Assembly: GCA_903928015.1 (NCBI GenBank)
Contig: CAIYPF010000033.1
Span: forward strand, 1-34,536
From: an uncultured Gammaproteobacteria bacterium
GTDB lineage: Bacteria > Pseudomonadota > Gammaproteobacteria > Pseudomonadales > UBA5518
Length of the DNA: 34,536 nucleotides
Direction of reading: 5' to 3'
Shown: positions 8,940-26,276 of the stretch, piece after piece
Layout: each line of letters starts with the position of its first letter
How positions within the stretch are numbered: position 1 is the stretch's first letter
Program-made: the position numbers and the translations under genes
The notes under the pieces: generated by a model
Databases searched by the model: none
Seen by the model: the letters and a program-made list of their open reading frames with translations, nothing else
What the model was told of the DNA's origin: nothing

Positions 8940-10580
8940 TCAGCCCGGCACATCCACCCCGGTGTGCAGCGGCTCCCCGAACACCCGCAACAACAGCGGC
9001 GTGAGCGCCTGCAGGGGGGCGAGCGGCCGATCGGGCGGCTGCAGCCCGTTCACGAAACCTTCCCCTCGTAAGCGCGCGAGGAGTTCCGTGTTCCGGCTGA
9101 TCACATGCACCGGCACATCCCAGGGAGCTCCGGGCCCGGTCACCGCACCGATGGGCTGGTGGTCGCCGATCACGATCAGCACGAGATCCGGATCGGCTCG
9201 CTCGGCAATGAAGCCCGCGAGCCAGCCGAGCGTGTACCGGAATGCTGCGATGTACTGCGGCGTTGGCTGCGTCCAATCCTGCGGCACCGCGAGCGCGGCC
9301 TCGCGCTCGGCAGGCGTGTAGGCCGTGCCGGCGGCAAGCGCTGCCCAGTCCGACACCAGCGGTGCGAGAGGCGCAAAAGGCGCGTGCGTGCTCACCGTCG
9401 GGAACATCACGAAACGCGGCGCCGGTGAGCCGTGCCGGGCGGCTGCGGAAAGCTCGTCGCGCTCGAGCAGCGCCATCGCCGCCTGGTCGGGCACCTGCCA
9501 GTAGCCGAAGCCTGGCCCCCGGTAGCCGAGGGTGTCGAGTTCGCCATAGCGATCGAAGCCCCAGAAACGGCCTTCCGGCCACGGTCGCTGGATCCCCGGC
9601 ACCCACGCGACGGTGCGGTAGCCATGCGCGGAGAAATGCGACACCAGCGATGAGCGGCGGCTGCGCAGCAGCCCCGCATAGACATCCGGCTCGCGGGTGT
9701 CGAGGCCGGAGAGCAGCGCCGCATGCGCGAGCCATGAGGCGCCACCGAAGGTCGGTGAGACGACGCGGGCAGACACCACGCTGCGATCACTGCGGGAAAT
9801 GGCACGCGCCAGCACCTCACGCGCAGGCGCGAGTGATGCCCGGATATGCGGATCGTCCAGCGTGATCGCACCGTAGGCCTCGAGGAACAGCACAACCACA
9901 TCGGATCCGCCGAGCACCGACAGATCCCTGTCGAACGCAGGGCTTGCCGGCAGCGACGCATCGAGCCGCTCCGGAGACATCGAACGCGCCATGGCGCGAA
10001 CCTGCTTTGCCACGCTGCCCGAAACGGGCTCCGCGAAGACCTGATGCACGGGGAAGCCCAGTCGTGGCGCGATGCACCACGCGAGTACGAGCAGGAGCGC
10101 TGCCAGCGGCAGCGCCGATTGCACGGGCGAGTGATGCAGCCCCTGCGCGGTCCAACTGATCAGGGTGCGCAACAACAGGAACAGCAGCCCGATCAGCAGC
10201 ACCGCCGCCATCACGCCGCCGCCCAACGCGAACCACGCCTGCTCCGCGCCAGCCATGCGCAGCAGCTGCCAGACATGCTGTCCGTCCCAGTAGAGATTCA
10301 CGGGGCGCCCCAGCAACGCACGGCTCGTCACATCCGCGTACCGCCACAGCACGCCAAAGCTGACGATCACGGCCAGCACACCGGCGCTCCGCGGCGAGGG
10401 ACCGCGAGCGAACCGCACACAGAGCGCGAGCACAATCACCAGCAAGGCCAGCTCCACCGACACCCGGAGCTGCGGCACCACGCCAATCCCCGGCCAGAGG
10501 TTCGCGAAGGTGAGGAGTGCATTCAGCCCGAGGAGCGCGAGCCCGAGCCGGACAAGGGGCCAGCCGCCCATCCTGCTCAT
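8940..10580 (-). CDS. Membrane sulfatase/LTA-synthase-fold phosphotransferase-like protein
   Basis: This 546-residue protein has about five N-terminal membrane helices (residues ~8-28, 40-57, 66-80, 118-138, 155-172) and a large C-terminal periplasmic alkaline-phosphatase-superfamily domain. Metal-site candidates are E234 in VLFLEAYGAIT and the Asp/His pair in VIGDHQP near residue 472. The nucleophile region is SPTFGGASW (residues 275-283), where T277 or S282 would be the active residue. There is no Cys for a formylglycine, so phosphotransferase activity on a glycerol-phosphate or phosphoethanolamine head group is more likely than sulfate hydrolysis. It is divergent from the creatininase-family gene (83 bases between starts) and sits at the edge of the rib/pterin/envelope cluster. 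Confidence 0.85.
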   Translation of the reverse strand: MSRMGGWPLVRLGLALLGLNALLTFANLWPGIGVVPQLRVSVELALLVIVLALCVRFARGPSPRSAGVLAVIVSFGVLWRYADVTSRALLGRPVNLYWDGQHVWQLLRMAGAEQAWFALGGGVMAAVLLIGLLFLLLRTLISWTAQGLHHSPVQSALPLAALLLVLAWCIAPRLGFPVHQVFAEPVSGSVAKQVRAMARSMSPERLDASLPASPAFDRDLSVLGGSDVVVLFLEAYGAITLDDPHIRASLAPAREVLARAISRSDRSVVSARVVSPTFGGASWLAHAALLSGLDTREPDVYAGLLRSRRSSLVSHFSAHGYRTVAWVPGIQRPWPEGRFWGFDRYGELDTLGYRGPGFGYWQVPDQAAMALLERDELSAAARHGSPAPRFVMFPTVSTHAPFAPLAPLVSDWAALAAGTAYTPAEREAALAVPQDWTQPTPQYIAAFRYTLGWLAGFIAERADPDLVLIVIGDHQPIGAVTGPGAPWDVPVHVISRNTELLARLRGEGFVNGLQPPDRPLAPLQALTPLLLRVFGEPLHTGVDVPG

Positions 10581-10663
10581 CGCCCTGCGCCCTCCGCTTG
10601 TTTAGCATGGGAGCGCGCGCCGGCCGAGGGCACGCAGCACACCCACCTCCGAGGACGCATCGC

Positions 10664-11473
10664 GTGCCGCACACCGACCTCCATACGCGCTGGCAGGATC
10701 AGACCCCCGATGGCCTCGCGGCGCTGGCTGCAGCGGGCGCGGTGGTGCTCTGGCCGCTCGCCGCGATCGAACAGCACGGCGAGCACCTGCCGCTCTCGAC
10801 GGACCTCGATATCGCGCTCGGGCTCACGGCCGCGGCTCTGGAGCAAGTGCGTGCGGACGTGCCCGTGTGCGTGCTCCCGCCGCTCGCCGTGGGCATGAGC
10901 CTGGAGCACACGCATTTCCCGGGCACGCTCAGCTTCTCGCCGCAAACCGCTCTCGCCGTGATGACCGAGATCGGCGAGAGCGTCGCGCGCGCCGGCTTCA
11001 GGCGCCTCGTGCTGCTGAACGCACACGGCGGCAACCGCGCCCTCGTGGACCTCGCAGCACTCGCGCTGCGTGAATCGCGGAACATGCTGGTGGTGCGCGC
11101 GAACTACTTCATGATCGCGGCACCCGCCGATGCGCTGCCGGAGGCCGAGTTGCGCCACGGACTGCACGGCGGCGCGCTCGAGACAGCCATGATGCTGCAC
11201 CTCGCGCCGCAGGCGGTGCGCCTCGACCGGTTCCCGCAGGCGCGGAGCCTCGGCGAGGACATGGCCGAGGCAGGACAGGTGCTCGGGCCCGAGGCCGAGG
11301 CGGGTTTCGCATGGATGGCAGAAGACCTTCACCCTGGCGGCACCGCGGGCGACGCGCGTCTGGCGAGTGCCGCGCTCGGCGAGCGCTTGCTCCGTCACTA
11401 CGGCAGCAAACTCGCACGGGTGATCGAGGAGAGCTTCGAGTTCGCTCTCTCGCGTCTGGGGCACCGGGACTGA
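10664..11473 (+). CDS. Creatininase/ArfB-family amidohydrolase
   Basis: This metal-dependent amidohydrolase belongs to the family of creatininase, the archaeal formamide hydrolase ArfB and mycofactocin peptidase MftE. All expected metal ligands are visible: Glu and His in IEQHGEHLPL, Asp in STDLDIA, His in LNAHGGN, and Glu in HGGALETAMM. The GTG start at 10664 is chosen because GAGGA precedes it by 8 bases and the ~269-residue product fits the family. An ATG at 10607 lacks a ribosome site. It converges on the GTP cyclohydrolase II-like gene (17-base gap). ArfB removes the formyl group from the GTP-derived pyrimidine in archaeal riboflavin/F420 synthesis, so a deformylase or related amidase role fits this setting. 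Creatinine hydrolysis is the alternative, but no creatinase gene is present. Confidence 0.88.
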   Translation: MPHTDLHTRWQDQTPDGLAALAAAGAVVLWPLAAIEQHGEHLPLSTDLDIALGLTAAALEQVRADVPVCVLPPLAVGMSLEHTHFPGTLSFSPQTALAVMTEIGESVARAGFRRLVLLNAHGGNRALVDLAALALRESRNMLVVRANYFMIAAPADALPEAELRHGLHGGALETAMMLHLAPQAVRLDRFPQARSLGEDMAEAGQVLGPEAEAGFAWMAEDLHPGGTAGDARLASAALGERLLRHYGSKLARVIEESFEFALSRLGHRD

Positions 11474-11490
11474 GCGCCGCTTCGGAAGCA

Positions 11491-12627
11491 TCATCCGCGC
11501 CCCGCATCCGGGGCGATCGCCGGCGCGGGCTCCGCCGGATCATCGAACAGCGCGTGAAGCAGATGGCCCTGGCGGTCCGCCATCGCCAAGAGGTAACGGC
11601 GATTGTGCCGGGTGAGCGGCCCGAAGAGCGCCTGGCGGTTCGCGACCTCGGTGCCGGCCTCGCAGAGGGCCGTGATCTTCGCCGGGTTGTTCGTGAGCAA
11701 CGTCACGCGTGGCACACCGAGTGCGGCCAGCATGTCGTGCGCGATACGGTAATCCCGCTCGTCATCGCCGAAACCGATCGTGCGGTCCGCGTCGACGGTG
11801 TCGAGGCCTTCGTCCTGCAGGCGATACACGCGCAGCTTGTTGGCGAGTCCGATACCACGCCCTTCCTGCGCGAGGTAGAGCAGGATCCCTCCGCCCTGCG
11901 CGTTGATGGTGGCGATGCTGCGCTGCAGTTGCTCGCCGCAATCGCAACGCTGGCTGCCGAACACATCCCCGGTAAGGCAGGCGCAGTGGAGACGCACCGG
12001 CACGGCCTCTGGCCAGCGCGCGGGATCCCCCACCAGCACGGCAACGTGCTCTTGCAAGCCGTCGCGTTCGCGGAACAGCACAAAGCGGCTGTCCACGCCC
12101 TGCGCGAGCGGCACACGCGCCTCGCCGGCGCGAACGAGCCGCGGGGCCCCGTCACAGAGCGCGAGCGCCTCCTCGAGGGGCACGCGCAGGAACTCCCCCT
12201 CTCGCACTGCCGCATCTACCGCCCCCGCGTTGCCGGCAGGCACCCGCACGGCAAGACCCGCGGGCAGCACGCGCGCACGCCGCAGCAGTCTCACGGCGGC
12301 CTGCTCGGTCGCAACGCAGTCGCGCAGAGAGGCGCCTTCCGGCACGTGCTGCGCGTGCTCACCCGCGAGTCTGAGCAGTTCGGCGGGGCTGGCAGGCAGC
12401 ACGATCGGCAGAGCGGCAAACTCCGCGATATCAGGGACCGACATGCTCGCGAGCCGATGCCCGGTGAGCAGCAAGGCACAACGATCTCCTCCCAACTCAC
12501 GAAACCGCGCGATACTCCCGGTGGTGATGCCCTCGACCGGGTGCACGAGCATGTCGCCCGTGTGGTCGGCGATGAGCACGGGCAAGCCCCGGTGCAGATC
12601 GAAAACCGCTCGCTCTGCATGTCGCAT
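11491..12627 (-). CDS. GTP cyclohydrolase II with degenerate DHBP-synthase-like N-terminal domain
   Basis: The C-terminal half (~residues 175-365 of 378) is a complete-looking GTP cyclohydrolase II, which converts GTP to 2,5-diamino-6-ribosylamino-pyrimidinone phosphate, formate and pyrophosphate. Zinc Cys217, Cys228 and Cys230 lie in CLTGDVFGSQRCDCGEQL, followed by QEGRGIGLANKLR, GFGDDERDYRIA and LLTNNPAKI. The N-terminal ~150 residues align by eye with 3,4-dihydroxy-2-butanone-4-phosphate synthase (FDLHRGLPVLIAD, TGSIARFRELGGDRCALLL). They lack the acidic RENEGD-type metal site, which reads ADHTGDML here, so this half is probably inactive. GGAGGTGA precedes the ATG. It is divergent from the RibD-reductase gene, 63 bases apart. 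Housekeeping RibA is less likely given the decayed half and neighbours. Confidence 0.88.
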   Translation of the reverse strand: MRHAERAVFDLHRGLPVLIADHTGDMLVHPVEGITTGSIARFRELGGDRCALLLTGHRLASMSVPDIAEFAALPIVLPASPAELLRLAGEHAQHVPEGASLRDCVATEQAAVRLLRRARVLPAGLAVRVPAGNAGAVDAAVREGEFLRVPLEEALALCDGAPRLVRAGEARVPLAQGVDSRFVLFRERDGLQEHVAVLVGDPARWPEAVPVRLHCACLTGDVFGSQRCDCGEQLQRSIATINAQGGGILLYLAQEGRGIGLANKLRVYRLQDEGLDTVDADRTIGFGDDERDYRIAHDMLAALGVPRVTLLTNNPAKITALCEAGTEVANRQALFGPLTRHNRRYLLAMADRQGHLLHALFDDPAEPAPAIAPDAGRG

Positions 12628-12690
12628 CGGTCACCTCCATGGAGTGGTTCCGGCTGCCGCACCCTCCACGTCGTACGGAAGGACTCTTGA
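12628..12690. promoter_or_regulatory. 63-base divergent control region of the two rib-like genes
   Basis: The GTP cyclohydrolase II-like gene and the RibD-reductase gene start back to back here, so both promoters and any operator must lie in or near these 63 bases. Both ribosome sites are visible (GGAGGTGA leftward, GGAAGG rightward). No clear sigma-70 boxes are recognised, and the space is far too short for an FMN riboswitch. Confidence 0.4.
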
Positions 12691-13572
12691 ATGCCGATTG
12701 AAGAGATTACGGAGGCCGAGGCCTGGTCGGCCACAAGATCCTCGATTAATCGTCAGCGGGCGGGGGTAGAGCGCGCGTCGAACAGTGGTTCGGACGGTCC
12801 GATACATTTTCTGCCGGACGGCTCCTGGCACGCCGAGCGGCCCGTATCGGCGCCGGCGCAGAGCCTGCTCGAGGTCTTTGCGCCACTCGTGTCACGCACG
12901 GGGCCGCTCGTCATAGGGCAACTCGGGCAGAGCCTGGACGGACGGATCGCCACCCACACCGGCGCCTCGCACTACATCAACGGCGAGGCCGCACGGACGC
13001 ACCTGCACCGGTTGCGGGCGATCGTCGATGCCGTGGTGATCGGCGTGGGCACTCTCAACGCGGATGATCCCCAGCTCACCGTGAGGCACGTCGAGGGACA
13101 CAACCCGGCAAGGGTGCTGCTGGACCCCACGGGACGGGCACGTGCGGACTGCCGCATGTTCCGCGACGGGCAGGCGCGCGTGCTGCATCTGCAGGCGCAG
13201 GGCGCGGGCGCGGGCGACCCGCAGTTGCCAGCGGGCATCGAGAGCGTGCAGCTACCGCATCACCCTGCGTACGGAATCCACCCTGCGGTCGTGCTGCAGT
13301 CCCTGGTGGAGAGGGGGTTGCGGCGCGTGCTGGTGGAAGGTGGAGGGCTCACCGTGTCGCGTTTCCTCGAGGCCGGGGCGCTGCACAGGCTGCACCTTCT
13401 GGTGGCACCGATGCTGATCGGCTCGGGGCGCCCGGGGATTTGTCTGCCGCCCATCGACACCCTGGAGGCAGCGCTGCGCCCGCGCTGCCGGGTGTTTGCC
13501 TGTGGCGCAGACAGCCTCTTCGATCTGGCGCTGGACGCCCCTGCGGCAGCGACTTCAACCGGGGCTATCTGA
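12691..13572 (+). CDS. RibD C-terminal (pyrimidine reductase) domain protein without deaminase domain
   Basis: This 293-residue protein carries the dihydrofolate-reductase-like RibD_C/Rib7 fold, which reduces the ribosyl group of a riboflavin pathway intermediate with NADPH. Typical segments are GQLGQSLDGRIATHTGASHY (residues ~75-94), HRLRAIVDAVVIGVGTLNAD with DDPQLTVR, VLVEGGGLTVSRFLEAGAL, and VAPMLIGSG. The zinc deaminase half of bacterial RibD (HxE and PCxxC motifs) is absent. Instead there is a ~70-residue N-terminal region of unknown role. In fungi and archaea a stand-alone reductase of this type acts before deamination. GGAAGG precedes the ATG. Its last 18 bases overlap the end of the convergent flippase-like gene. 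Confidence 0.88.
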   Translation: MPIEEITEAEAWSATRSSINRQRAGVERASNSGSDGPIHFLPDGSWHAERPVSAPAQSLLEVFAPLVSRTGPLVIGQLGQSLDGRIATHTGASHYINGEAARTHLHRLRAIVDAVVIGVGTLNADDPQLTVRHVEGHNPARVLLDPTGRARADCRMFRDGQARVLHLQAQGAGAGDPQLPAGIESVQLPHHPAYGIHPAVVLQSLVERGLRRVLVEGGGLTVSRFLEAGALHRLHLLVAPMLIGSGRPGICLPPIDTLEAALRPRCRVFACGADSLFDLALDAPAAATSTGAI

Positions 13573-14517
13573 GGTGACCTCCGCCTGCACCGCGGGCGGT
13601 GACCGGACCGCAAGCAGCAGGAAAGCGCCCGCAAGCGCCGACACCAGCACGAGCACGCCATACAGCAGTGAAATCGCCACGCCCTGCGCCACCGGCAGGC
13701 CGGCGAGCATCCAGATACCTGCCGCCGCGCCCTCACGGATACCCCAGCCCGCCAGCGAGAGCGGCACCGACATCGCCACCAGCACCCAGAGGATGAGTGG
13801 CACCAGCGCGAGCGCGCCCGTCCCGACGCCCAGTGCGCGGGCACAGCAGAGATACACCACTACATAGCTGCCCACCAGCGCCAGCGAGAGCAGCAGCTGC
13901 GGGAACCACGCGCGGCGCGAGAGCACGGCCTGCCCGAAGTCGCGGCCGAACCACGCCAACGCAGGCAACATCCGGCGCGCGAGCACTGCGGCGGCGATCA
14001 GCGCGAGGACGATGCCTGAAAGGCCGAGCGTGAGGCTCTGGCCACGCCCGTTCCGGCATTCCACGCCGATCGAAGGCGCCCATGGCAAGGCGAGAAGCGC
14101 GCAGGCGAGCAGTACAAGCTGCCCCGCAGCCCGCTCGATCATCACAGCGTGCCAGGCCGCGCGCGTGGCCGGGGCGGTGCGCGCGTGGCGCCAGGCACGG
14201 GTGAGATCACCCGCGACCCCACCCGGTAGTACCTGGTTCAGGACGTTGCCGAGGCAGTACTCGCGAAGTGCGCGCGAGAACGGCAGCGGCATGCCGAGCA
14301 GCCCGGTGGTGAACCGCCAGCGCCAGGCCGACAACAGCACCTGCGGCACGCTGAGAAGAAGCGCAAGCAGAAGCCAGGGGATCGACAAGGTCTCGAGCAT
14401 ACCGAGCAGACCCGCCGGCCCGACCCATGCGACCAGCCCTGCAAGGAGCAACACGCTCGAAAGCGCACGCAGCCACCAGACCCGGCTGCGCCGCGGCGCA
14501 GTGTCGATGGTGCTCAC
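13555..14517 (-). CDS. Lysylphosphatidylglycerol-synthase-TM/flippase-like membrane protein
   Basis: This integral membrane protein of about 320 residues belongs to the UPF0104/LPG_synthase_TM group (flippase-like domain), related to the membrane part of MprF. About eight hydrophobic helices are visible, with the family-typical loop LREYCLGNVLNQVLPGGVAG near residues 64-83 and the Pro/Gly-rich SLAGWGIREGAAAGIWML late in the chain. Relatives move or handle lipid-linked substrates. The GTG at 14517 is chosen because it forms a GTGA overlap with the methyltransferase stop; the frame extends upstream but would then lie within that gene. It is the last gene of the five-gene unit beginning at 17877, which suggests it moves or anchors the product of that unit. 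Confidence 0.85.
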   Translation of the reverse strand: MSTIDTAPRRSRVWWLRALSSVLLLAGLVAWVGPAGLLGMLETLSIPWLLLALLLSVPQVLLSAWRWRFTTGLLGMPLPFSRALREYCLGNVLNQVLPGGVAGDLTRAWRHARTAPATRAAWHAVMIERAAGQLVLLACALLALPWAPSIGVECRNGRGQSLTLGLSGIVLALIAAAVLARRMLPALAWFGRDFGQAVLSRRAWFPQLLLSLALVGSYVVVYLCCARALGVGTGALALVPLILWVLVAMSVPLSLAGWGIREGAAAGIWMLAGLPVAQGVAISLLYGVLVLVSALAGAFLLLAVRSPPAVQAEVTSDSPG

Positions 14518-15419
14518 GCGTCCGGCTCTGTGCCCGCCCGCTCCCCACCGGGACAGGCGAAGAGATCGACATGGCCCACGCACATCCGGAAGGCGGGATC
14601 GCGGAGTGCCTCGCGTCTGCGGGCGTGCCAGGCGCGCAGACGCAGGGCCTCACCGGGCATCTGCGCCAGCGCTGCGTCACACCAGCCTTCCAAGAGCGCT
14701 GCGGCGAGTGCGGCCTCCCGCGGGCGATCCATGTGCAGCTGCCACGGGCTCGGTGCCACGTGCACGCGGTAGCCCACGGCGCGCAGGCTCGCGGCGAGAT
14801 GCGCGTGTGCATCGGGGCCCAGCGCACCGCCCACGCCCTTGTCGCGCCGCTGGTGTGCGTTGAAGGCTTCCCGCGCGAGTTGGTCGCCCGGGTCCTCGTC
14901 CTGATGTGGTCCGCGACGGAACGACCACTCACCATCCACCGAGAGACTGAACAAGGCGGCCGCACCCGCGCGGGAGCACGCCGCCGCGAGGCGCTCGAGC
15001 CACGCTGCGCCCACCAGATCCATCAGTGCCGAAGCGCAGACCAGATCCACGCCTGCGAACGCATCAGGCGCGAGCGCGGCGAGATCCCGGCACTCACTGC
15101 GGAGCGCGACCGGCTGGCCAGCAGCATCACGAAGCAAGGCGCCACCGCGAACGGCGCGCTCGAGCAACAGGGCGTCGTGATCGACGAGGCACCACGCCTG
15201 CGGCCCCGGCAGCCGTGGCGCGAGGAACCGCGGGTTTGAGCCGCTGCCCGAGCCGAGATCCACGCAGGCGACAGGCGTTCTTCCACGTGCCTCGAGCCAG
15301 CGAGCCGCGCGTGCGGTGAGCGCCGGGGATCGGGCATCGGCATCAGCGCCCTCCCGGAGCGCGAGCCAGTCCGCATCGAAACGGCTCTCGGGGTGGGGCG
15401 AGTCGTTTGCGGTACTCAC
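14514..15419 (-). CDS. Class I SAM-dependent methyltransferase
   Basis: This is a predicted methyltransferase of 301 residues with a Rossmann-type SAM site. Motif I is VDLGSGSGSN (residues ~49-58), followed by an acidic strand end (WCLVDHD) and DLVCASALMDLV in the motif IV area. The C-terminal half is Trp/His-rich and may form the substrate pocket. Nothing in the sequence tells the acceptor (carbon, oxygen or nitrogen). The GTG start at 15419 overlaps the glycosyltransferase stop in a GTGA, and its own stop overlaps the next GTG, so it is translationally coupled on both sides. The longer upstream frame lies inside the glycosyltransferase gene and is rejected. Confidence 0.86.
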   Translation of the reverse strand: MSTANDSPHPESRFDADWLALREGADADARSPALTARAARWLEARGRTPVACVDLGSGSGSNPRFLAPRLPGPQAWCLVDHDALLLERAVRGGALLRDAAGQPVALRSECRDLAALAPDAFAGVDLVCASALMDLVGAAWLERLAAACSRAGAAALFSLSVDGEWSFRRGPHQDEDPGDQLAREAFNAHQRRDKGVGGALGPDAHAHLAASLRAVGYRVHVAPSPWQLHMDRPREAALAAALLEGWCDAALAQMPGEALRLRAWHARRREALRDPAFRMCVGHVDLFACPGGERAGTEPDA

Positions 15420-16465
15420 GCGCGCGCCCCCTCGAGTACAGCCGCAAAGGCCCGCGCCGCTTGCATCCAGTCGCCCTGGTGACCGCGCGCCTCCCGCGCC
15501 GCCGTGCGTAATGTCGCCCGCGCAGCACCATCGCGCAGCAGCTGTTCGAGCGCATCGGCCAAGGCCGCCGCATCGCCGGGCGGCACCAGCACCCCGGCGC
15601 CCGGGGGTAGGGTCTCGGCAAGCGCGCCGCCGCGCGTCGTCAGCACGGGCAGACCGTGTGCGATGGCCTCGGTCACGACCATGCCGTAGCCCTCGTAGAA
15701 CGAGGGCAGCACGAAGAGATCCGCTCCGAGCCAATACTCCCGCAGACGCGCGGGCGGCAACTCCCCCGCAAGCGTGATGCGCCCGGCGAGCCCTGCCGCC
15801 GCGATGGCCTGCGTCACCGCGCTCGCATGGGGGGGATCGCGGTCAGCACTGCCCACCAGCGTGCACGACCAGGGCAACGCCTGCAGAGCCGCAAGGGCCT
15901 CGACGAGGATCAGATGCCCCTTCCGAGGCACGATGCTGGCGATGCAGAGAAGCCGCGGCGGCTCGTGGTCGGCCGCCGCGAGCGGGGACGGATCGATGCC
16001 GGGTTCCACCACATGGATGCTCCCTGGCGGAACTGCGTAATCCGCGAGCTGGCGGGCGGTGAAGCCGCTGGTCACCACCACCCGTCTTGCATGGACGAGG
16101 GCAGCGCGCTCGGTAGCTTCAAGGGTATCGCGCACGCTGGCGTCCAGGCCGTTTTCCTTGGCAAGCGGATGGTGAACGAGCGCCACCAGATCAAGGCGAC
16201 GCGCGTGCTCGCGCACCACCTCGGGCAAGCCACCGAACACCAGCCCGTCGATGACAACACAGGCTCCGTCGGGGTGTTCGGCAAGGCACTGCGCGAGCGC
16301 ACCCGCGGCACGCGCATCGGGCAAGGGGAATCGGCCCTCAAGGCCGTGGGTCTGCACCTGCCAGCCGAGCGCGGTCAGCCCCTCTGCGATACGGGCGTCG
16401 TAGAGGTAACCGCCAGTGAACTGTGCCGGCGAACCTGCAACAACGAAGCTGCACGCCCGGTTCAC
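15416..16465 (-). CDS. GT4 family glycosyltransferase
   Basis: This is a GT-B fold glycosyltransferase of about 349 residues. The N-terminal domain opens with [19 protein letters not shown]. The C-terminal donor-binding domain shows [14 protein letters not shown] and the EX7E motif in [20 protein letters not shown], typical of family 4 enzymes using NDP- or GDP-sugars. No signal peptide or membrane helix is seen, so it acts in the cytoplasm or at the membrane face. The GTG at 16465 forms a GTGA overlap with the PTPS-like gene stop; another GTG at 16489 is possible but less consistent. Its place between a pterin-synthase-like gene and a methyltransferase suggests it glycosylates the same small molecule. 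Confidence 0.9.
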
Positions 16466-16860
16466 ACGGGCCCTTCGTAGCTCGCCCACGCAATGTGTGA
16501 TTCATGGAGCGTCACCGATATCACGTTCACGCCACGGGCGCCCGCGCCCAGCGCACCGGCGTGCAGTTCCGCGACCATGCGATCGAAGATCTCGCGCGCC
16601 ATGAATTCGGTGGTGGTGTTCTTGCCCGAAAAGTCAGGCTCATCGTCGAGGTTGCGGAAATTCAGCGCCTCCAGCACGCGCTTCAGGGATTGCGCGGCCA
16701 GCCCGATGTCCACGACCAGTCCGTCGGCATCGAGCGCCTCGCGCCGGAACGTGAGGTCGACGATGTAGGTCGCGCCGTGCAGCCGTTGCGCGGGCCCGAA
16801 AATCTGCCCCTGGAAGCTGTGGGCGATCATGATGTGATCGCGGACGTTCAGGCTGTACAT
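16462..16860 (-). CDS. 6-pyruvoyl-tetrahydropterin synthase/QueD-like protein with altered active site
   Basis: This 132-residue protein has the PTPS/QueD (tunnelling T-fold) pattern. It keeps IAHSF (H14), RLHGATY (H28) and the C-terminal SVTLHESH with E120. However, canonical QueD/PTPS residues are changed. The third zinc His of the HGH motif is Ala (A30), the catalytic Cys four residues before the HGH is Ala (A24), and the catalytic Asp-His pair reads Asn67-Phe68. Ordinary QueD or PTPS chemistry is therefore unlikely. It may do another reaction on a pterin or pyrimidine, or only bind one. It lies 36 bases after the dehydrogenase gene and is coupled to the glycosyltransferase by GTGA. Confidence 0.85.
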
Positions 16861-16896
16861 GCGCGTGTTTCCTCGGTGCTGTGTCTGCTGCGGACT

Positions 16897-17877
16897 TCAG
16901 GGTTGTTCGTACTGCACGCGGTGGCAAAGCACGCCACGCGGATCGCAGGCAAGGCGCCCCATGTTCAGGGGCAGGTCCCGGAAGCGGCCTTCGTCGTTGA
17001 TAAGCGCCTCGAGGCGCTCGTCACGCAGCAATTCCAGTGCGAGCCCCAGCCGTCGGCGGGTGTCCCAGCGCGGCGCGCGAGACGGGGGCAGGCGTCCTAC
17101 CTGACTCGACTTCAGCGTAAGACGACGCGAGTGGAACGCGCCACCGAGCGGCAACTCCACGCTTTGGCTGCCGTACCAGCTCATCTCGAGCACCATGGCC
17201 TCGAGGCCGGCAAGGCCGAGCGCGCTGCGAAGCCCCGCGGGATGGCCGCTTGCGTGGATCACGAGGTCACGATCCCCCGTCGCCTGCTCCGGGTGACTGA
17301 AACGGCATCCGAGCACGCGGGCGAGCGCCTCGCGCGCGGGGTCGATGTCGAGCAGATCCACTTCCGCGCCGGGAATCCGCGCACAGAGATAAGCCACGAG
17401 CGCACCCACCACCCCCGCGCCCACCACCGTGATCCGGTCACCCGGACCGGCTTGCGCATCCCACACCGCATTCAGGGCGGTTTCCATGTTGGCGGCGAGC
17501 ACCGCGCGACCGCTCGGCAGATCCGCAGGCAACGGCGTCACCGCGGCGGCAGGCACCACATAGCGTGACTGGTGCGGGTGCAGGCAGAAAACGGTGCGTC
17601 CGAGGAGCGCCGCAGCGCCTGCCTCCACCACACCGACGCTTGCGTAGCCATACTTCACAGGAAAGGGGAAATCGCCGCTCTGGAAGGGCGCGCGCATCCG
17701 CGTGTACTCGGCCTGGGGCACCGCACCGCGCCAGATCAGGCTCTCGGTGCCGCGACTCACGGCGGAATACAGCGAGCGCACGAGAACTTCGCCGTCACGC
17801 GGATCGGGGATTACCTCGGGGCGTATCTCGCCGCACTGCGGCGAGACGACCCAGAAGGCCTCGGTGTGATGCGTCAT
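16897..17877 (-). CDS. MDR superfamily (zinc-type alcohol dehydrogenase-like) protein
   Basis: This medium-chain dehydrogenase/reductase-like protein has about 326 residues. The N-terminal catalytic domain has SLYSAVSRGTESLIWRG, resembling the BchC-like/zinc-binding dehydrogenase group, and FPVKYGYASVGVVEAG. The Rossmann domain starts at VVGAGVVGALVAYLCA with an acidic LLDID that suits NAD. The usual catalytic Cys and four-Cys structural zinc site are not visible, so metal use is uncertain. The ATG at 17877 has AGGAAAG upstream; the longer frame to 18675 is antisense to the phosphatidyltransferase gene. It is the first gene of the five-gene unit and is divergent from the CDP-alcohol phosphatidyltransferase gene (86 bases). 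Confidence 0.86.
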   Translation of the reverse strand: MTHHTEAFWVVSPQCGEIRPEVIPDPRDGEVLVRSLYSAVSRGTESLIWRGAVPQAEYTRMRAPFQSGDFPFPVKYGYASVGVVEAGAAALLGRTVFCLHPHQSRYVVPAAAVTPLPADLPSGRAVLAANMETALNAVWDAQAGPGDRITVVGAGVVGALVAYLCARIPGAEVDLLDIDPAREALARVLGCRFSHPEQATGDRDLVIHASGHPAGLRSALGLAGLEAMVLEMSWYGSQSVELPLGGAFHSRRLTLKSSQVGRLPPSRAPRWDTRRRLGLALELLRDERLEALINDEGRFRDLPLNMGRLACDPRGVLCHRVQYEQP

Positions 17878-17896
17878 GCGAAGCTTTCCTGCGCGG

Positions 17897-17916
17897 TGTA
17901 ATAGCTGCCGGTTACA
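17897..17916. promoter_or_regulatory. Possible operator (TGTAA-N10-TTACA) between divergent cluster genes
   Basis: TGTAA at 17897-17901 and TTACA at 17912-17916 form a symmetric site with a 10-base spacer in the 86-base gap between the MDR gene and the CDP-alcohol phosphatidyltransferase gene. A dimeric regulator could control both directions from here. The arms are short and no cognate regulator gene is in the window. Confidence 0.3.
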
Positions 17917-17963
17917 GGCCTGCGAGTGTATCGTCGAAGCCCCGCCACAAGTACCGGAGCACC

Positions 17964-18689
17964 ATGCAGAGCAGATCTTCCGGAGCACCACACCCGCTCC
18001 TGATCGCCGAATTCGCGAGCGGCGGCGCCGCGGTCCTGCTGCTGGCGTCAGCGGCCGGCCGTTGGCTCGCGGCTCCACCGGCATTTGCGATTGCAGCAAC
18101 GGTCGGCTACCTGGCGATGGCGGCCCTGATCGCGTGGCGGCTTCCGAAAAACAGCGGGCTTGGCCCTGCCAACCGCGTGACGCTCGCCCGAGGCGTGCTG
18201 GTCTGCCTGATAGCGGCAGCGCTCTTTGACGTGGCATGGCTCGCCGCGCAAGCCCACTGGCTGGTGGGAACGGCGATTCTCGCGCTCGCGGCAGACGGGC
18301 TCGATGGCTGGGTCGCCCGGCGCACGGGCTCGGGGAGCGCCTTCGGTGCGCGCTTCGATATGGAGCTCGACGCCTGCCTGATCCTCGTGCTCTGTCTCTG
18401 CGTGCTCGCGCTGGGCAAGGCAGGCGCCTGGGTGCTTGCCATCGGTGCCATGCGGTACCTGCTGGTAGCGGCGATGTGGCCCTGGCCCTGGCTAGCGGCG
18501 CCCTTGCCGGAGAGCTGGCGTCGCAAGGCGATCTGCGTGTGGCAGGTCGCGAGCCTCGTATGCGCACTCTCGCCGTGGGTGATGCCGCACGTGGCAGCGC
18601 CCCTGCTGTGGAGCTCGCTCGCGCTGCTCGGCTGGTCCTTCGCGGTGGATGTACGGTGGCTGCATCGGGAAGCACGCGGCCAGGCCTGA
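17964..18689 (+). CDS. CDP-alcohol phosphatidyltransferase family protein
   Basis: This integral membrane enzyme of 241 residues transfers a phosphoalcohol from a CDP-linked donor to an acceptor alcohol. The full family motif D(x)2DG(x)2AR(x)8G(x)3D(x)3D is present: D111, D114, G115, A118, R119, G128, D132, D136. There are about six to seven hydrophobic helices. An unusual first ~60 residues with two helices precede the conserved PANRVTLARG segment. The ATG at 17964 has CGGAG seven bases upstream. It is divergent from the dehydrogenase gene and converges on the sarcosine-oxidase region. The acceptor is not identifiable; phospholipid, inositol-phosphate or a cluster-specific product are possible. 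Confidence 0.88.
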   Translation: MQSRSSGAPHPLLIAEFASGGAAVLLLASAAGRWLAAPPAFAIAATVGYLAMAALIAWRLPKNSGLGPANRVTLARGVLVCLIAAALFDVAWLAAQAHWLVGTAILALAADGLDGWVARRTGSGSAFGARFDMELDACLILVLCLCVLALGKAGAWVLAIGAMRYLLVAAMWPWPWLAAPLPESWRRKAICVWQVASLVCALSPWVMPHVAAPLLWSSLALLGWSFAVDVRWLHREARGQA

Positions 18690-18781: not shown

Positions 18782-21199
18782 TCAGGCCCGAATCCGCTCC
18801 CCCTTCGGATCCCACGCGGCTTGCCTCAGCACATGCGCCGCCCTGCTCTCCCCCACCACATCCACCGTGAGCGCAGGCGCCTCACGCACAACATCACGAT
18901 CGACATAGGCCAGCGCCAGACTCTGACCCACGTGATGCCCGCAGGCACCCGAGGTCGTGTAGCCCACCAGCCTGCCCTCGCACTTCACCGGCTCGAAGCC
19001 CGAGGCGTCGGCATCGGTGGCATCAATGGCAAGCGTCACCAGCACGCGCGGTGCGGGTGATTCGCGCTCGCGCAGCGCGCCCTCGCGGCCGATGAAATCG
19101 CCCTTGTCGAAGGCCACATGCCGATCGAGACCGCACTGTCCCGGCGTGTTCGCCTGCGTGAATTCCGTGGACCAGATGCCGTAGCTCTTCTCGAGCCGCA
19201 GGCTGTCGAGTGCGCGATTGCCGATGTTGCGCAAACCGCGCTCCTGGCCCGATGCCATCAGCGCGTGGTAGAGCGCGCGCTGCTCGGCGGCGGGCACGTA
19301 GATTTCGTAACCGAGTTCACCGGTGAGCGAGAGTCGCGCCACCACCGCGCGCGCGAGGCCCACATCGAACTGTGCGCAACGCATGAAGGGGAACGCGGCG
19401 TTCGAGAGATCGCCCTCGACCAGCGGCTGCACGATCTCCCGCGCGAGCGGACCCGAGAGCGCAAAGCCCGTCCACGTGTCCGAGAGATTGCGGAAGCTCA
19501 CACCATGCACGGGCAGCGATTCGCGGAACCAGCGCCCGTGCCACTCCTGCAGGTAATAGGAACCGATCAGCCAGAAGCGGTCTTCCGCCAGGCGGCTAAC
19601 CGTGAGATCGCCCATCAGCTTGCCGCCGTGGCCGAGCATGGGCGCGAGGCGCACGCGGCCCACCGCAGGCAGGCGGCAGGCGAGCAGGCGATCCAGCCAG
19701 GCCGCAGCAGCGGGGCCGCTCACCTCGTAGCGCGCGTAGACGGAGGCATCGAACATCCCCGCGGCCTCGCGCGTGGCGCGCACTTCTTCCGCGACGAAGC
19801 CATGCGCATTCGAGCGGCGCACGGTGGGGTTTTCGATGAAGCCGTTCGCGCCACGCGCGAAAAACTGGGGTGTCTCCATGCCCCAGGTGGAGCCGAAGAG
19901 CGCGCCGTCGGCGGCAAGCAGATCGTGCACGGGTGAGGTCTTCAGCGGGCGGCCCGCCGGGAGCTCCTCGTTGGGATAGGAGATCACGAAGCGCCGCGCG
20001 TAAAACTGTCGCGTCATGTCGCGCAGATAGCGCTCCTGCGAGGCAAACGCGCCGTAGCGCGCCACGTCCATGCCGAAAATGTCGTGCCCCGGATCACCGT
20101 TGATCATCCATTGCGCGAGCGTGAGACCGATCGCGCCGCCCTGCGAGAAACCGCCCATGCAGCCGCAGGCCACCCAGTAGTTCTTCTTGCCGGGCACGGG
20201 GCCCACCAGCGGGTTGCCGTCGGGCGTGAAGGTGAAGGCGCCGTTCACCCAACGCTTGATGCCCACCTCGGAGAGCGCCGGGAAGCGCGAGAAGCCGATC
20301 TCGAGCTCCGGCAGGATGCGGTCCACGTCCGGCGGCAGCAGATCCATGCCGTAGTCCCAGGGCGCGCCCTCGGGGCACCAGTGGCGCGGATCGCGCTCGT
20401 AGACGCCAAGCAGCGCGCCCTTGCCGAGCGGCTGCAGATAGGTGAACCCCTCGAGATCCGTGATGGACACGAACTCGCGGTCCATCGCGGCGAGCATGGG
20501 CACGTCTTCGGTAACCAGATAGTGGTGCGACATGGGCGTGACGGGCAGATCGACACCCACCATCCGACCCACCTTGCGCGCCCACAGGCCCGCGGCGTTC
20601 ACCACATGCTCGGCGTTGATGGTTCCCTTTTCCGTTATCACGTCCCATGAACCATCGGCGCGTTGCTGCAGGTCGAGCACGCGGTTGCGCAGGATCACGT
20701 CCGCACCGCGTTGCTTCGCCGCGATGGCGAAGGCGTGCGTGGTGCCGTGCGCGTCCATGTAGCCTTCGTGGGCGTCGTAGAGTCCGCCCTTGAGACCCGA
20801 GGGGTCCACCAGCGGACACATCTCGCGGATCTGCTCGGGCGTGACAAGCCGGGTCTCCATGTCCATGGTTTCGTACATCGCGCGCTCGGCCTTCAGCATC
20901 TGCCAGCGCTCATCGGAGGCCGCGAGGCTGATGCCTCCGGTCATGTGCATGCTCACGCTCTGGCCGCTCTCTTTCTCGATCTCGTCGTAGAGGCGGATCG
21001 TGTAGCCCTGCAGCGCCGCGATGTTCGGGTCGTCGTTCAGCGCGTGGAAGCCGGCAGCGGCGTGCCAGGTCGAACCCGAGGTGAGTTCGGCACGCTCGAT
21101 CAGCGCCACGTCGCTCCAGCCGTAACGGGCCAGGTGATAGAGCACGCTGGTGCCCACGATGCCGCCACCGATCACCACCACGCGGTAATGCGATTTCAT
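18782..21199 (-). CDS. Dimethylglycine/sarcosine dehydrogenase-like flavoprotein (DAO + GcvT)
   Basis: This 805-residue enzyme has an N-terminal D-amino-acid-oxidase-type FAD domain (VVVIGGGIVGTSVLYHLA at residues ~7-24) and a C-terminal GcvT/folate-binding domain (about 430-800). SGSTWHAAAGF contains the His that carries covalent FAD in dimethylglycine dehydrogenases. The domain order matches dimethylglycine and sarcosine dehydrogenases, which demethylate the amine and pass the one-carbon unit to tetrahydrofolate. It lies 25 bases after the M20 peptidase gene, as the last gene of the sox run. With soxBDAG it would provide successive removal of the two N-methyl groups of dimethylglycine. Exact substrate preference is inferred. 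Confidence 0.9.
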   Translation of the reverse strand: MKSHYRVVVIGGGIVGTSVLYHLARYGWSDVALIERAELTSGSTWHAAAGFHALNDDPNIAALQGYTIRLYDEIEKESGQSVSMHMTGGISLAASDERWQMLKAERAMYETMDMETRLVTPEQIREMCPLVDPSGLKGGLYDAHEGYMDAHGTTHAFAIAAKQRGADVILRNRVLDLQQRADGSWDVITEKGTINAEHVVNAAGLWARKVGRMVGVDLPVTPMSHHYLVTEDVPMLAAMDREFVSITDLEGFTYLQPLGKGALLGVYERDPRHWCPEGAPWDYGMDLLPPDVDRILPELEIGFSRFPALSEVGIKRWVNGAFTFTPDGNPLVGPVPGKKNYWVACGCMGGFSQGGAIGLTLAQWMINGDPGHDIFGMDVARYGAFASQERYLRDMTRQFYARRFVISYPNEELPAGRPLKTSPVHDLLAADGALFGSTWGMETPQFFARGANGFIENPTVRRSNAHGFVAEEVRATREAAGMFDASVYARYEVSGPAAAAWLDRLLACRLPAVGRVRLAPMLGHGGKLMGDLTVSRLAEDRFWLIGSYYLQEWHGRWFRESLPVHGVSFRNLSDTWTGFALSGPLAREIVQPLVEGDLSNAAFPFMRCAQFDVGLARAVVARLSLTGELGYEIYVPAAEQRALYHALMASGQERGLRNIGNRALDSLRLEKSYGIWSTEFTQANTPGQCGLDRHVAFDKGDFIGREGALRERESPAPRVLVTLAIDATDADASGFEPVKCEGRLVGYTTSGACGHHVGQSLALAYVDRDVVREAPALTVDVVGESRAAHVLRQAAWDPKGERIRA

Positions 21200-21224
21200 T
21201 TGCCGGTCTCCGGGTATTGCTGTG

Positions 21225-22610
21225 TCACTTCGCGAGATCGCGGAGGAGGGAGTCGTAGTGCGCGAGCGCGCCGTCGATGGCGGCGACCGGAGACTTCTCG
21301 TTCAGGCCGTGCGAGAAGGACTCGCCCTTCTGCGAGAACATCCCCGAAAGCCCGTAGCTCGGCACACCGGCGGCGCGGAAATACATGCTGTCGGTGGCAC
21401 CCGCCGACATCGAGGGCGAGATGGGGATGCCGGGATGGATCGCGTGGACGGAGCGCTTCACAGCCGCCATGACGTCGGGGCGCAGCGGAGACGCGGGGCT
21501 GTCGAGCGCGCCGTCGTTGCGGCGCGTGATGCTGACCTCGGGATCGGCCATCACGGAGGCCAGCGTCTGGCGCACCGATTCCGCGGGCGTGCCCGGGAAG
21601 ATCCGGCAGTTCACCACCGCAGTCGCGCGCTGCGGCAGCGCATTCGGCGCGTGCCCTCCGCCCTGCATGGTGGCGACACAGGTGGTGCGCAGCATGCCCA
21701 CGTTGCCGAGTTCGGTTTCCAGCGTGGCGATCGCCGCAGCGTCCGTCGGGTCTTCGGCAAAGCGTTTCATGGCGGCACCCATCTCGCCGGGGTACTCGCC
21801 CGCGGCCGCCGCGAAAGAGCCGCGCGTGATCTCGTTCGACATCACGGGGAATCGGTACTCGGAAATGCGCACCATGGCGCGGGCAAGGCGGTAGATAGGG
21901 TTGCCGGGCGTGGGGCGGCTCGAATGGCCGCCGGGATCGGTGGCAACGACGTCGAAATCCGCGTAACTCTTTTCTGCGCCCTGGATGCCGTAAGACACCG
22001 CCTTGCCATCACGCATCAGCCCGCCACCGCCGTCCACGTTGATGACGAGCTCCGCGTTGGCGAGACGCTTCGCCAGCACAGCGGTGGTGGCCATGCGGGT
22101 TTCCTCGTCGCCCGAGAGCGCGAGGATCACATCGCGCCCGGGCTTCCAGCCCTCACGGCGCAGCTTCGTGAGCGCGGTCACGGCCATCGAGACGTCGAAC
22201 TTGTTGTCGGAGGCGCCACGCCCGTAGACGTAGCCGTTCTCGACCACCGGGGTGAAGGGGTCGCGTTCCCAGTCTTCGGGCCTGGCTTCCACCACGTCCA
22301 TGTGGCCCAGCACCACGACGGGCTTACTGGCGGGATCGCGGCCCGGGTAGCGGGCGATCAGGATGGCGGAGCCTTCGAGTTCCTCGATGGCGATCTCATC
22401 GGCCGCGTAGCCGGACCCGACGAGGAGGCCCTTCAGATAGGCCGCGTAGGCAGGCGTCTGCCCGCCACCGGCTACCGTGCGGAACGAGACGCTGCGCTTC
22501 AGTGTGTCGAGTGCCTGCGCATGCAGCGCCGGATCCACGACGGGCGGAGCGGCGAGTGCGGCGACGGAAAAAAATGCGGCGATGGCGAGCAGGGTGTGCG
22601 GGGCTTTCAT
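21225..22610 (-). CDS. M20 family metallopeptidase, exported
   Basis: This di-zinc peptidase/deacylase has about 461 residues. An N-terminal signal peptide (MKAPHTLLAIAAFF, cleaved near ALAAPP) suggests periplasmic location. Metal residues H103 and D105 lie in LGHMDVV, D135 in GRGASDNK, and E169/E170 in SGDEE. The lid/dimerisation segment contains GGHSSRPTPGNPIYRLA. It resembles carboxypeptidase/dipeptidase members of M20/M28. The ATG at 22610 with CGGAG upstream gives a proper signal peptide; a longer frame to 22874 is not supported. It sits between soxG and the dimethylglycine-dehydrogenase-like gene, so it may liberate an N-methyl amino acid from a conjugate, but this is inference. Confidence 0.9.
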   Translation of the reverse strand: MKAPHTLLAIAAFFSVAALAAPPVVDPALHAQALDTLKRSVSFRTVAGGGQTPAYAAYLKGLLVGSGYAADEIAIEELEGSAILIARYPGRDPASKPVVVLGHMDVVEARPEDWERDPFTPVVENGYVYGRGASDNKFDVSMAVTALTKLRREGWKPGRDVILALSGDEETRMATTAVLAKRLANAELVINVDGGGGLMRDGKAVSYGIQGAEKSYADFDVVATDPGGHSSRPTPGNPIYRLARAMVRISEYRFPVMSNEITRGSFAAAAGEYPGEMGAAMKRFAEDPTDAAAIATLETELGNVGMLRTTCVATMQGGGHAPNALPQRATAVVNCRIFPGTPAESVRQTLASVMADPEVSITRRNDGALDSPASPLRPDVMAAVKRSVHAIHPGIPISPSMSAGATDSMYFRAAGVPSYGLSGMFSQKGESFSHGLNEKSPVAAIDGALAHYDSLLRDLAK

Positions 22611-22653
22611 GGTGTGCTCCGAGAGAGGTTGCGGGGTGGCCGTGCAGGCGCCC

Positions 22654-23181
22654 TCAGGAATGTGACGACGTAGCGTGTACCTCGAGCCAGCGCCACAGCG
22701 CCGGCGCCCAGGCGCGATCGACGTGCAGGCGCCAGCCCGCAGCGCGGCGCGAGACCGCCACCACCAGCCCGGCAAAGAGCATGCGCGCGGATTCGGTGGC
22801 GGCTCCATGCTCCGACGGGAAGGGATACTCGCAGCCCTGCGCGAGCAGCGCAGGAGCGCCCTCTCCTTCCACATCGATCAGTATCCATGCATCACCCGCG
22901 TCGCTGATCGCAACGCCGTGCTCCGCGTGCCAGCCCGGTGATGCCGCCACAGCGCCCACGATCAGCAGCGTGTCTGGCGCGAGGCGCAGTGCGTAGTCCG
23001 GGCGCGTGCATGTCTGGCGCGGACCGGAGACGGCAAGGGAGCGCGCAGCAAGCCAGGCCTCCACCGATCCGGCCACCAATTGCGCGGGGCCGCAGCTCGC
23101 GGCGACCGACAGGCCGGGCCGCTCGATCCGCGCGCCGCTCCACTCGGGAGGAGCAGACCAGAAAGAACTGCGTTCAAACAT
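22654..23181 (-). CDS. soxG: Sarcosine oxidase gamma subunit
   Basis: This 175-residue protein is the small gamma subunit of heterotetrameric sarcosine oxidase, which is GcvT-like in fold and helps hold the complex together. Family features include LSVAASCGPAQLVAGS, the central DYALRLAPDTLLIVG segment and the C-terminal LHVDRAWAPALWRWL. Sequence conservation in this subunit is low, so order (soxB-soxD-soxA-soxG) is a large part of the evidence. The ATG at 23181 overlaps the end of soxA by eight bases. Confidence 0.88.
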   Translation of the reverse strand: MFERSSFWSAPPEWSGARIERPGLSVAASCGPAQLVAGSVEAWLAARSLAVSGPRQTCTRPDYALRLAPDTLLIVGAVAASPGWHAEHGVAISDAGDAWILIDVEGEGAPALLAQGCEYPFPSEHGAATESARMLFAGLVVAVSRRAAGWRLHVDRAWAPALWRWLEVHATSSHS

Positions 23182-26017: not shown

Positions 26018-26268
26018 CGGTTCATGGGCTCCGTGGCGATCACGACGTGGCTGGCAGTGTCGCGCCGGATCTCGATCCAGCGTCCGCAGCCGGCAGCGTG
26101 CAACCAGAGCTCGAGCGACTCTCCACGCGTGTTGGCGCGGAAATGCATGTACTGCGCCCACTCGGCGTCGCTGCAGTCGCGCGCCGGGCGCGCCTTGCGT
26201 GCGTCGCCGCCGTAACGGAACTCCGCATCAGGGCGTTCGCCGCAGAATGGACAGGGAAAGACCTGCAC
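26014..26268 (-). CDS. soxD: Sarcosine oxidase delta subunit
   Basis: This small zinc-binding subunit has 84 residues. With GTG at 26268 as start, Cys6 and Cys9 (FPCPFCG) plus His57 and Cys61 (LHAAGCGRW) give the four expected zinc ligands. The pattern AEFRYGGDA, WAQYMHFRANTRG and the final IEIRRDTAS are typical. The GTG is preceded by a perfect AGGAGG that spans the stop codon of soxB. This start is preferred over longer forms that would lie within soxB. It ends in an ATGA overlap with soxA. Confidence 0.95.
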   Translation of the reverse strand: MQVFPCPFCGERPDAEFRYGGDARKARPARDCSDAEWAQYMHFRANTRGESLELWLHAAGCGRWIEIRRDTASHVVIATEPMNR

Positions 26269-26276
26269 GCGCCCTC

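Follow-up and report, generated by a model that had tools for sequence, protein, structure and literature searches.

We analysed a stretch of 34,536 bases (here called the window), which is one complete contig (CAIYPF010000033.1) from the draft genome of an uncultured gammaproteobacterium, and in particular ten genes at positions 8,940 to 18,689 that an earlier, sequence-only reading had picked out as a cluster joining partial riboflavin and pterin chemistry with glycosyl, methyl and lipid-type transferases. All ten open reading frames (ORFs) are open and intact, and the Pfam and fold assignments agree with the enzyme types named in that reading, which confirms the cluster. In order along the window, the genes encode a predicted LtaS/OpgB-like membrane phospho-headgroup transferase of the alkaline phosphatase superfamily, assigned by a fold match of its AlphaFold2 (AF2) model (8940..10580, minus strand); a creatininase-family hydrolase (10664..11473, plus strand; PF02633, 2e-63), proposed to be an ArfB/BrbF-like formamidase acting on the formylated pyrimidine FAPy; a GTP cyclohydrolase II (GCH2) with an extra N-terminal domain (11491..12627, minus; PF00925, 6e-53); a stand-alone RibD-type reductase (12691..13572, plus; PF01872 only, 2.6e-35); and an LPG_synthase_TM ('flippase-like') membrane protein (LPG_TM; 13555..14517, minus; PF03706, 9e-33). 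These are followed by a class I S-adenosylmethionine (SAM)-dependent methyltransferase (14514..15419, minus), a GT4 glycosyltransferase (15416..16465, minus; PF00534/PF13692), a protein of the 6-pyruvoyl tetrahydropterin synthase (PTPS) family that serves as the marker of the cluster (16462..16860, minus; PF01242, 1e-24), a BchC-like dehydrogenase of the medium-chain dehydrogenase/reductase (MDR) type (16897..17877, minus) and a CDP-alcohol phosphatidyltransferase (17964..18689, plus; PF01066, 7e-17). Given the start codons chosen, the PTPS, GT4, methyltransferase and LPG_TM genes overlap by 4 bp at every junction; the creatininase gene probably starts at 10664 (GTG) rather than at the ORF start, 10517.

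The families matched in Pfam are Creatininase, GTP_cyclohydro2, RibD_C, LPG_synthase_TM, GT4, PTPS and CDP-OH_P_transf; the other three proteins are weakly matched (MDR) or unmatched (methyltransferase and LtaS-like). The MDR protein gave only weak Rossmann-type Pfam matches below the cut-offs, together with an NCBIfam match to BchC (1.9e-11) that scores 43.7 bits against a cut-off of 291. The AF2 model of the methyltransferase (predicted local distance difference test (pLDDT) score 93) was matched by Foldseek to 3mgg and to other class I SAM methyltransferases and, judged by this model, the protein is one of them.

The cluster is widespread but patchy

A profile built from six PTPS proteins and run against genomes taken one per species found at least 579 relatives. 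The best 80 of these were kept and, since they are mostly from Streptomyces, rates were taken where possible from even samples of 398 Pseudomonadota genomes (213 genera) and 296 Actinomycetota genomes, with a PTPS-like gene scored at E <= 1e-30. Such a gene was found in 27 of the 398 Pseudomonadota genomes, the window's own included (20 of the 213 genera), and in nine of the 296 Actinomycetota genomes, the Streptomyces centre included. It was also found in six of 36 nearest-relative genomes, again counting the window's own, so that close kin often lack the gene. The 27 Pseudomonadota genomes gave 25 loci once the window (G000) and G023 were set aside, and 23 of these are fully flanked; three of the nine Actinomycetota matches were carried on to the analysis of loci.

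The core of the cluster is close to constant in the 23 fully flanked Pseudomonadota loci (MDR in 23, PTPS in 23, GT4 in 23, methyltransferase in 21 and RibD reductase in 20), and the remaining genes are found less often (GCH2 in 10, CDP-alcohol transferase in 10, LPG_TM in nine, creatininase in six and the LtaS-like gene in five). When the window's proteins were used as tblastn queries against the best 80 of the at least 579 relatives, GT4 was found in 79, MDR in 79, the methyltransferase in 78, the CDP-alcohol transferase in 72, LPG_TM in 67, GCH2 in 63, creatininase in 55, the RibD reductase in 28 and the LtaS-like gene in 11. Across our full set of 112 loci (numbered L, and counting two contigs twice, L009/L014 and L022/L162), MDR is present in 110, GT4 in 110, the methyltransferase in 106, the CDP-alcohol motif in 86, LPG_TM in 84, GCH2 in 78, creatininase in 62, the RibD reductase in 54 and the LtaS-like gene in 18. 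(Note that CDP-alcohol transferases were counted by motif because an iterative profile took antisense ORFs in some loci.)

The order of the ten genes is identical to that of the window in Thauera and Methyloversatilis loci (L015, L021, L025, L033 and L036), and much the same block occurs in Streptomyces, in Micromonospora and on plasmids. Among 85 loci compared for their flanks, phyH, terB and an aspartokinase-like gene occur in the window only, an M20 gene in one other locus and a short-chain dehydrogenase/reductase gene in three others; the flanking FAD oxidoreductase is matched at 87% within the same genus and weakly, at about 30%, in 17 Streptomyces loci. Because the block recurs in other phyla while the window's flanking genes do not, the cluster is not a chance grouping. 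It is real, widespread but patchy, and partly plasmid-borne. The genome-neighbourhood search that the sequence-only reading proposed has thus been run, and the co-occurrence is kept across genera and two phyla.

The PTPS-like gene was found on 20 of 72,556 plasmid records, and 15 of these 20 plasmids are typed as non-mobilizable. Seven plasmids were inspected: Methylosinus trichosporium pOB3b1, two from Streptomyces, a 59-kb mobilizable plasmid from Microbacterium, an Agrobacterium pAt, and one each from Thiodictyon and a member of the Rhodobacteraceae. The last of these carries MDR-PTPS-methyltransferase-RibD with GT4 absent. On plasmids the MDR orthologues are annotated as 'zinc-binding alcohol dehydrogenase'. 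On a Streptomyces anthocyanicus plasmid (L269, 9001-9426) a match to the PTPS query lies beside cupins, an MBL-fold hydrolase and a very large protein, and the usual cluster is missing.

The PTPS-IV protein has lost QueD residues

The signature FGPAQ is present in 110 of the 112 PTPS-like proteins, that of the window included, with FGPAR (L088) and a fragment (L196) as the exceptions. None of the 112 contains HGH, and they therefore carry neither CxxxHGH (QueD, PTPS-I) nor ExxHGH (PTPS-III, folate). The closest solved structure is PDB 3d7j (E 1.6e-57), deposited as 'Uncharacterized protein SCO6650'. In comparison with E. coli QueD, all 18 aligned members have Ala in place of Cys27 and of His33 (HGH becoming HGA), Asn, Ser or Thr in place of Asp70 and Tyr, Phe, Met or Leu in place of His71, whereas His31 and Glu110 are retained in all 18; at His16 the aligner placed a gap, and by eye this residue corresponds to H14. 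We take Cys27, His33, Asp70-His71, His31 and Glu110 to be the catalytic and base-binding residues of QueD, and on that footing the active site appears to be rebuilt and the protein is, by its residues, not an ordinary QueD or folate enzyme. Since the 18 members come from two phyla and still share 62-75% identity with the window protein, the changes would reflect a specific, constrained reaction rather than decay.

The passages on this subfamily in PMC5445326 place proteins with FGPAQ in COG0720 as cluster 62 of an AGeNNT network, and the name PTPS-IV is used for them both there and in PMC5041015. The same part of PMC5445326 reported in 2017 that PTPS-IV genes have PF00925 and RibD_C as neighbours, so that this association was already known. 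Both likenesses, the signature and the neighbours, are found in the window, and across the 112 loci PF00925 is present in 78 and RibD_C in 54. What the sequence-only reading had called a PTPS-like protein is thus indeed present, although it has to be corrected to a member of a published subfamily. To the two neighbours that PMC5445326 names, the cluster adds MDR, GT4, methyltransferase, creatininase and the lipid module; moreover, the PF00925 protein labelled there FolE2/GTP cyclohydrolase I is here a GTP cyclohydrolase II, as judged by its three zinc cysteines.

PTPS-IV proteins occur in hundreds of species at least (at least 579 matches) and are often misnamed 6-carboxytetrahydropterin synthase. 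This annotation is carried by L267-L273, five of the seven with a queuosine Gene Ontology term, and is contradicted by the residues missing from the subfamily. In the window's own genome, separate PTPS proteins hold CGRMHGH and ERLHGH; at C186:4610-5596 (L246, L261, L266) a 433-aa reading frame contains three tandem PTPS domains, one of them with the QueD motif CGRMHGH.

A separate riboflavin locus in the host

The RibD protein of the cluster has the RibD_C domain only and, by Pfam, no deaminase domain. Among the cluster genes we found no lumazine synthase, riboflavin synthase, deaminase, RibB, RibH or RibE. On another contig of the same genome (C32) lie nrdR, a two-domain ribD, a lumazine-binding protein (riboflavin synthase), ribH, nusB, thiL and ribA, together with a 3,4-dihydroxy-2-butanone 4-phosphate synthase (ribB) fused to a weak GCH2 domain. 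The sequence-only reading had suggested looking for such a pathway and had held that ordinary riboflavin synthesis is not the job of the cluster; since the host has a complete riboflavin locus elsewhere, the cluster serves something else, and that view is well supported by the genomics. Note that the first and reductase steps are homologous to those of the riboflavin pathway (RibA and RibD), from which the cluster differs in having no deaminase, RibB, RibH or RibE.

Entry enzymes of the cluster

The three zinc cysteines of GCH2 (C54, C65 and C67) are kept in all 66 aligned rows, E. coli RibA among them. Residues 1-166 of the window GCH2 are an extra N-terminal stretch that found no Pfam match at 0.01 and only chance-level matches in the PDB. 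(The full-length protein is similar to NCBIfam PRK08815, below the cut-off. The window's own genome also holds, at C76:33606-34085 (L103), a fourth protein with a GTP_cyclohydro2 domain, of 378 aa and 28% identical to RibA.) At the switch position of E. coli RibA, Y105, the window protein has Tyr, and among the 78 cluster GCH2s there are 48 with Met, 29 with Tyr and one fragment (L196). The S. coelicolor enzyme SCO6655 is said to make FAPy on account of its Met120 (Spoonamore and co-workers, 2006), and we take Met at the Y105 position as the mark of a FAPy-releasing enzyme of the SCO6655 type. All 48 Met-type genes are in loci titled Streptomyces and each lies beside a creatininase gene; of the 29 Tyr-type loci, 12 carry a creatininase and 17 lack one (L009 and L014, both counted among the 17, are a single truncated contig). 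Conversely, 60 of the 62 creatininase loci also hold GCH2.

The window creatininase keeps EQHG..LP..TD and N.HGGN, with Gly where solved creatininases have Glu122; its NAHGGN stands against NGHYEN and NGHFEN in the paralogues L238 and L242. A true creatininase (EC 3.5.2.10) was rejected for this protein, as Glu122, part of NGHYEN in that enzyme, is lost. In the order of steps known for ArfC, reduction precedes deamination, and archaeal ArfA is not known to be a homologue of GCH II. The steps proposed for the cluster are those of the archaeal route (ArfA, ArfB and ArfC) and of bacterial BrbF, namely FAPy, deformylation and reduction before deamination. According to the sections of PMC9478397 on BrbF, this creatininase-family protein of S. 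meliloti deformylates FAPy, and its authors describe it as without sequence similarity to archaeal ArfB. BrbF serves riboflavin, whereas the cluster is without the later riboflavin genes. The reading of the window creatininase as an ArfB-type deformylase is favoured by BrbF and by the company of GCH2, and the Tyr at the switch of the window's GCH2 fits it poorly.

A GCH2 tree was built from 31 of the 78 cluster genes and 20 others (it omits the cluster copies L206, L207, L208, L210-L213 and L215-L217, and the weak L220). In this tree 30 of the 31 cluster rows fall in three clades, from Streptomyces (100/99), Micromonosporaceae (100/100) and Proteobacteria (99/94), and the stray L181 is placed beside the non-cluster copy of its own genome. 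The cluster label requires four changes, three of them forced by starred branches, and GCH2 has likely been recruited to the cluster repeatedly, as far as the tree can tell. The creatininase tree (21 of the 62 cluster genes and seven paralogues with long branches) has a Streptomyces clade (100/100) and a proteobacterial clade (99/97) that are joined in 2% of bootstrap trees, which suggests repeated recruitment of this gene also. The separate clades of the entry enzymes would fit, short of proof, a FAPy or diaminopyrimidine entry step.

In Streptomyces loci the order is PTPS-GT4-methyltransferase-LPG_TM-creatininase-GCH2, with GCH2 five genes past PTPS, and the numbering of S. coelicolor SCO6650-SCO6655 fits this order, which was read in other Streptomyces loci; SCO6650 is the closest solved structure named above, and SCO6655 is listed as a GTP cyclohydrolase II in PMC2853524. 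In comparison with SCO6650-SCO6655, the window has Tyr at the GCH2 switch, the extra N-terminal domain, the RibD reductase and the LtaS-like gene.

An optional lipid module

The CDP-alcohol transferase carries the full motif DGxxARx8Gx3Dx3D (DGWVARRTGSGSAFGARFDMELD). The LtaS-like protein matched no Pfam family, and a search of PDB sequences with its profile gave a single chance-level match (0.06). Its AF2 model (pLDDT 84) is matched by LtaP (4uop), LtaS (4uor/2w8d), the MCR-1 domain and a Vibrio protein of the alkaline phosphatase superfamily; the Foldseek match to LtaP has a value of 3.4e-08, 12% identity and TM-scores of 0.36/0.47, and the predicted structure places an LtaS/LtaP fold behind a helical N-terminal part. 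E234, T277, D473 and H474 are invariant in 12 aligned sequences, and their roles are assumed by analogy with the active site of the alkaline phosphatase superfamily. The model thus gives the LtaS-like protein the predicted fold of that superfamily with conserved Glu, Thr and Asp-His. The lipid module shares fold and motif with LtaS/OpgB phosphoglycerol transferases and PgsA-type CDP-alcohol transferases, although the LtaS-like protein differs from LtaS and OpgB in having no meaningful PDB match at the level of sequence.

LPG_TM is present in 10 of the 25 even-sample loci, in every case with the CDP-alcohol motif (L172 has the motif without LPG_TM), and the LtaS-like gene in five, four of them with the motif. 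Accessory genes were counted by Pfam and tblastn in 119 loci, query loci included, as the gene finder and the clustering of neighbours were noisy and were not used. An MdoH-like GT2 occurs in 17 (13 at >=47% identity), an FkbM methyltransferase in 11, cytochrome b561 in nine, OpgC in two and YceI in 18 (13 at >=45%, the other five at about 30% and from Streptomyces). In a relative from the same genus, a YceI gene near position 1641 of L014 lies close to the CDP-alcohol transferase; no such gene was found in the window. The lipid module and these neighbours point to the membrane or the periplasm as the place where the product would be handled. The link to lipid, or export, that the sequence-only reading had suggested may hold, given the CDP-alcohol motif and the LtaS-like fold, with the correction that the genes form an optional module (10, nine and five of 23 for CDP-alcohol transferase, LPG_TM and LtaS-like, respectively).

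A candidate route from GTP to a decorated pyrimidine or pterin

From the gene content, the conservation, the separate riboflavin pathway, the residue changes and the clades of the entry enzymes, we infer every reaction and the product as follows. The cluster is probably a dedicated route that would convert GTP into a ribityl-pyrimidine or pterin that carries sugar and methyl groups and is often linked to lipid. GTP cyclohydrolase II would open GTP to a diaminopyrimidine, with the creatininase-family hydrolase deformylating FAPy where GCH2 stops at the formylated stage, and the RibD-type reductase would turn the ribose into a ribityl chain on a base that is not deaminated. PTPS-IV, with its tunnelling fold and the base-binding Glu kept, and the MDR dehydrogenase would then carry out a new ring-forming or side-chain step; GT4 would add a sugar and the methyltransferase methyl groups. 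Where a lineage has the lipid module, its CDP-alcohol transferase, LPG_TM and LtaS-like transferase may anchor the molecule to the membrane or move it across. That the product is a dedicated pyrimidine or pterin made from GTP and modified with sugar and methyl groups, as proposed earlier, is, in genomic terms, well supported by the conservation and the separate riboflavin set.

Several observations weigh against this route. GCH2 is present in 10 of the 23 evenly drawn loci and the lipid genes in five to 10. Two loci (L165 and L172) have a creatininase without a nearby GCH2, and a RibD reductase is missing from 45 of the 48 Met-type loci, all of them from Streptomyces (the Streptomyces genomes tested hold several RibD_C genes outside the locus). 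The link between Met and creatininase is confounded with this single genus. By the result reported for SCO6655, the window GCH2 with its Tyr should deformylate alone, yet the window and 11 other Tyr loci keep the creatininase; either Tyr is insufficient for deformylation in a GCH2 with the extra N-terminal domain, or the substrate of the creatininase is a different amide. The three forced changes in the GCH2 tree could also be one gain and two losses, and the creatininase tree, which is best fitted by two origins, has starred branches that are compatible with one. Finally, distant PTPS-IV members on plasmids are just 43-59% identical to the window protein.

Four other explanations were weighed. 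A surface glycolipid, a teichoic-like polymer or a decoration of periplasmic glucan, to which the GTP-derived part would supply only ribityl-phosphate or a small head group, would account for the CDP-alcohol transferase and LtaS-like enzyme and for the MdoH-like GT2, FkbM and OpgC genes counted above (17, 11 and two of 119 loci), but the lipid genes are optional and the Methylosinus and Rhodobacteraceae plasmids carry the core without lipid genes within 9 kb (in a gene table that is incomplete); we hold it to be unlikely. An auxiliary supply of riboflavin or flavin, for example for secretion, in which the pyrimidine made by the cluster would feed the host's deaminase, lumazine synthase and riboflavin synthase, seems quite unlikely. 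GCH2 and the RibD reductase are riboflavin-type enzymes, and in S. meliloti, by the account in the relevant part of PMC9478397, RibBA serves secreted flavin and another route serves the cell; however, lumazine synthase, riboflavin synthase and deaminase are absent from the cluster, the most constant genes are MDR, PTPS-IV, GT4 and the methyltransferase rather than GCH2, and riboflavin as the cluster's job is rejected by the complete set elsewhere in the genome.

A role of PTPS-IV in the synthesis of coenzyme F420/FO is, in our estimate, very improbable. The relevant passage of a 2016 paper (PMC5041015) ascribes PTPS-IV in archaea to F420/FO synthesis, in a statement that is unpublished there, and an F420 ligase was found in three of 11 cluster genomes tested (the window's own, a Streptomyces and a Micromonospora), but none was found in the eight other proteobacterial cluster genomes tested, some of which are metagenome bins. 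This pathway is accordingly disfavoured even though the window's own genome is among the three. That the gene is an ordinary QueD or folate enzyme lying here by chance is scarcely credible: orthologues are publicly annotated as 6-carboxytetrahydropterin or 6-pyruvoyl tetrahydropterin synthase, yet HGH is found in none of the 112 proteins, the motifs fail, the catalytic residues are gone and the genome has its separate CGRMHGH and ERLHGH proteins, and the assignment was rejected.

Returning to the dedicated route from GTP, we tentatively suggest that its product could be a cofactor or pigment of a new class, anchored to the membrane and built on an 8-ribityl-pterin (2-amino-lumazine-like) or a related ring; it is similarly conjectural that PTPS-IV would form this ring, which would bear sugar and methyl and be linked to lipid through phosphate. 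Such a molecule may have redox or light activity, its genes may be spread by plasmids, and in some lineages YceI and cytochrome b561 may be its partners. In Pseudomonadota and Actinomycetota, GTP appears to be channelled by a sometimes plasmid-borne pathway into a pterin- or flavin-like molecule not described before; in the open-access full-text literature, which leaves most subscription journals outside, no publication on the product or the complete gene set was found. The association of PTPS-IV with GTP cyclohydrolase II and a hydrolase of creatininase fold offers a direct way to approach the function of PTPS-IV and of Streptomyces SCO6655.

Other genes in the window and its genome

The F420 ligase homologue of the window's own genome lies at C124:4639-5289 (244.8 bits). 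Beside the cluster, positions 18782-27545 of the window hold a run of sarcosine oxidase alpha-like, dimethylglycine-dehydrogenase-like and DAO-family FAD oxidoreductases, which probably serve the catabolism of methylated glycines and are unrelated to the cluster.

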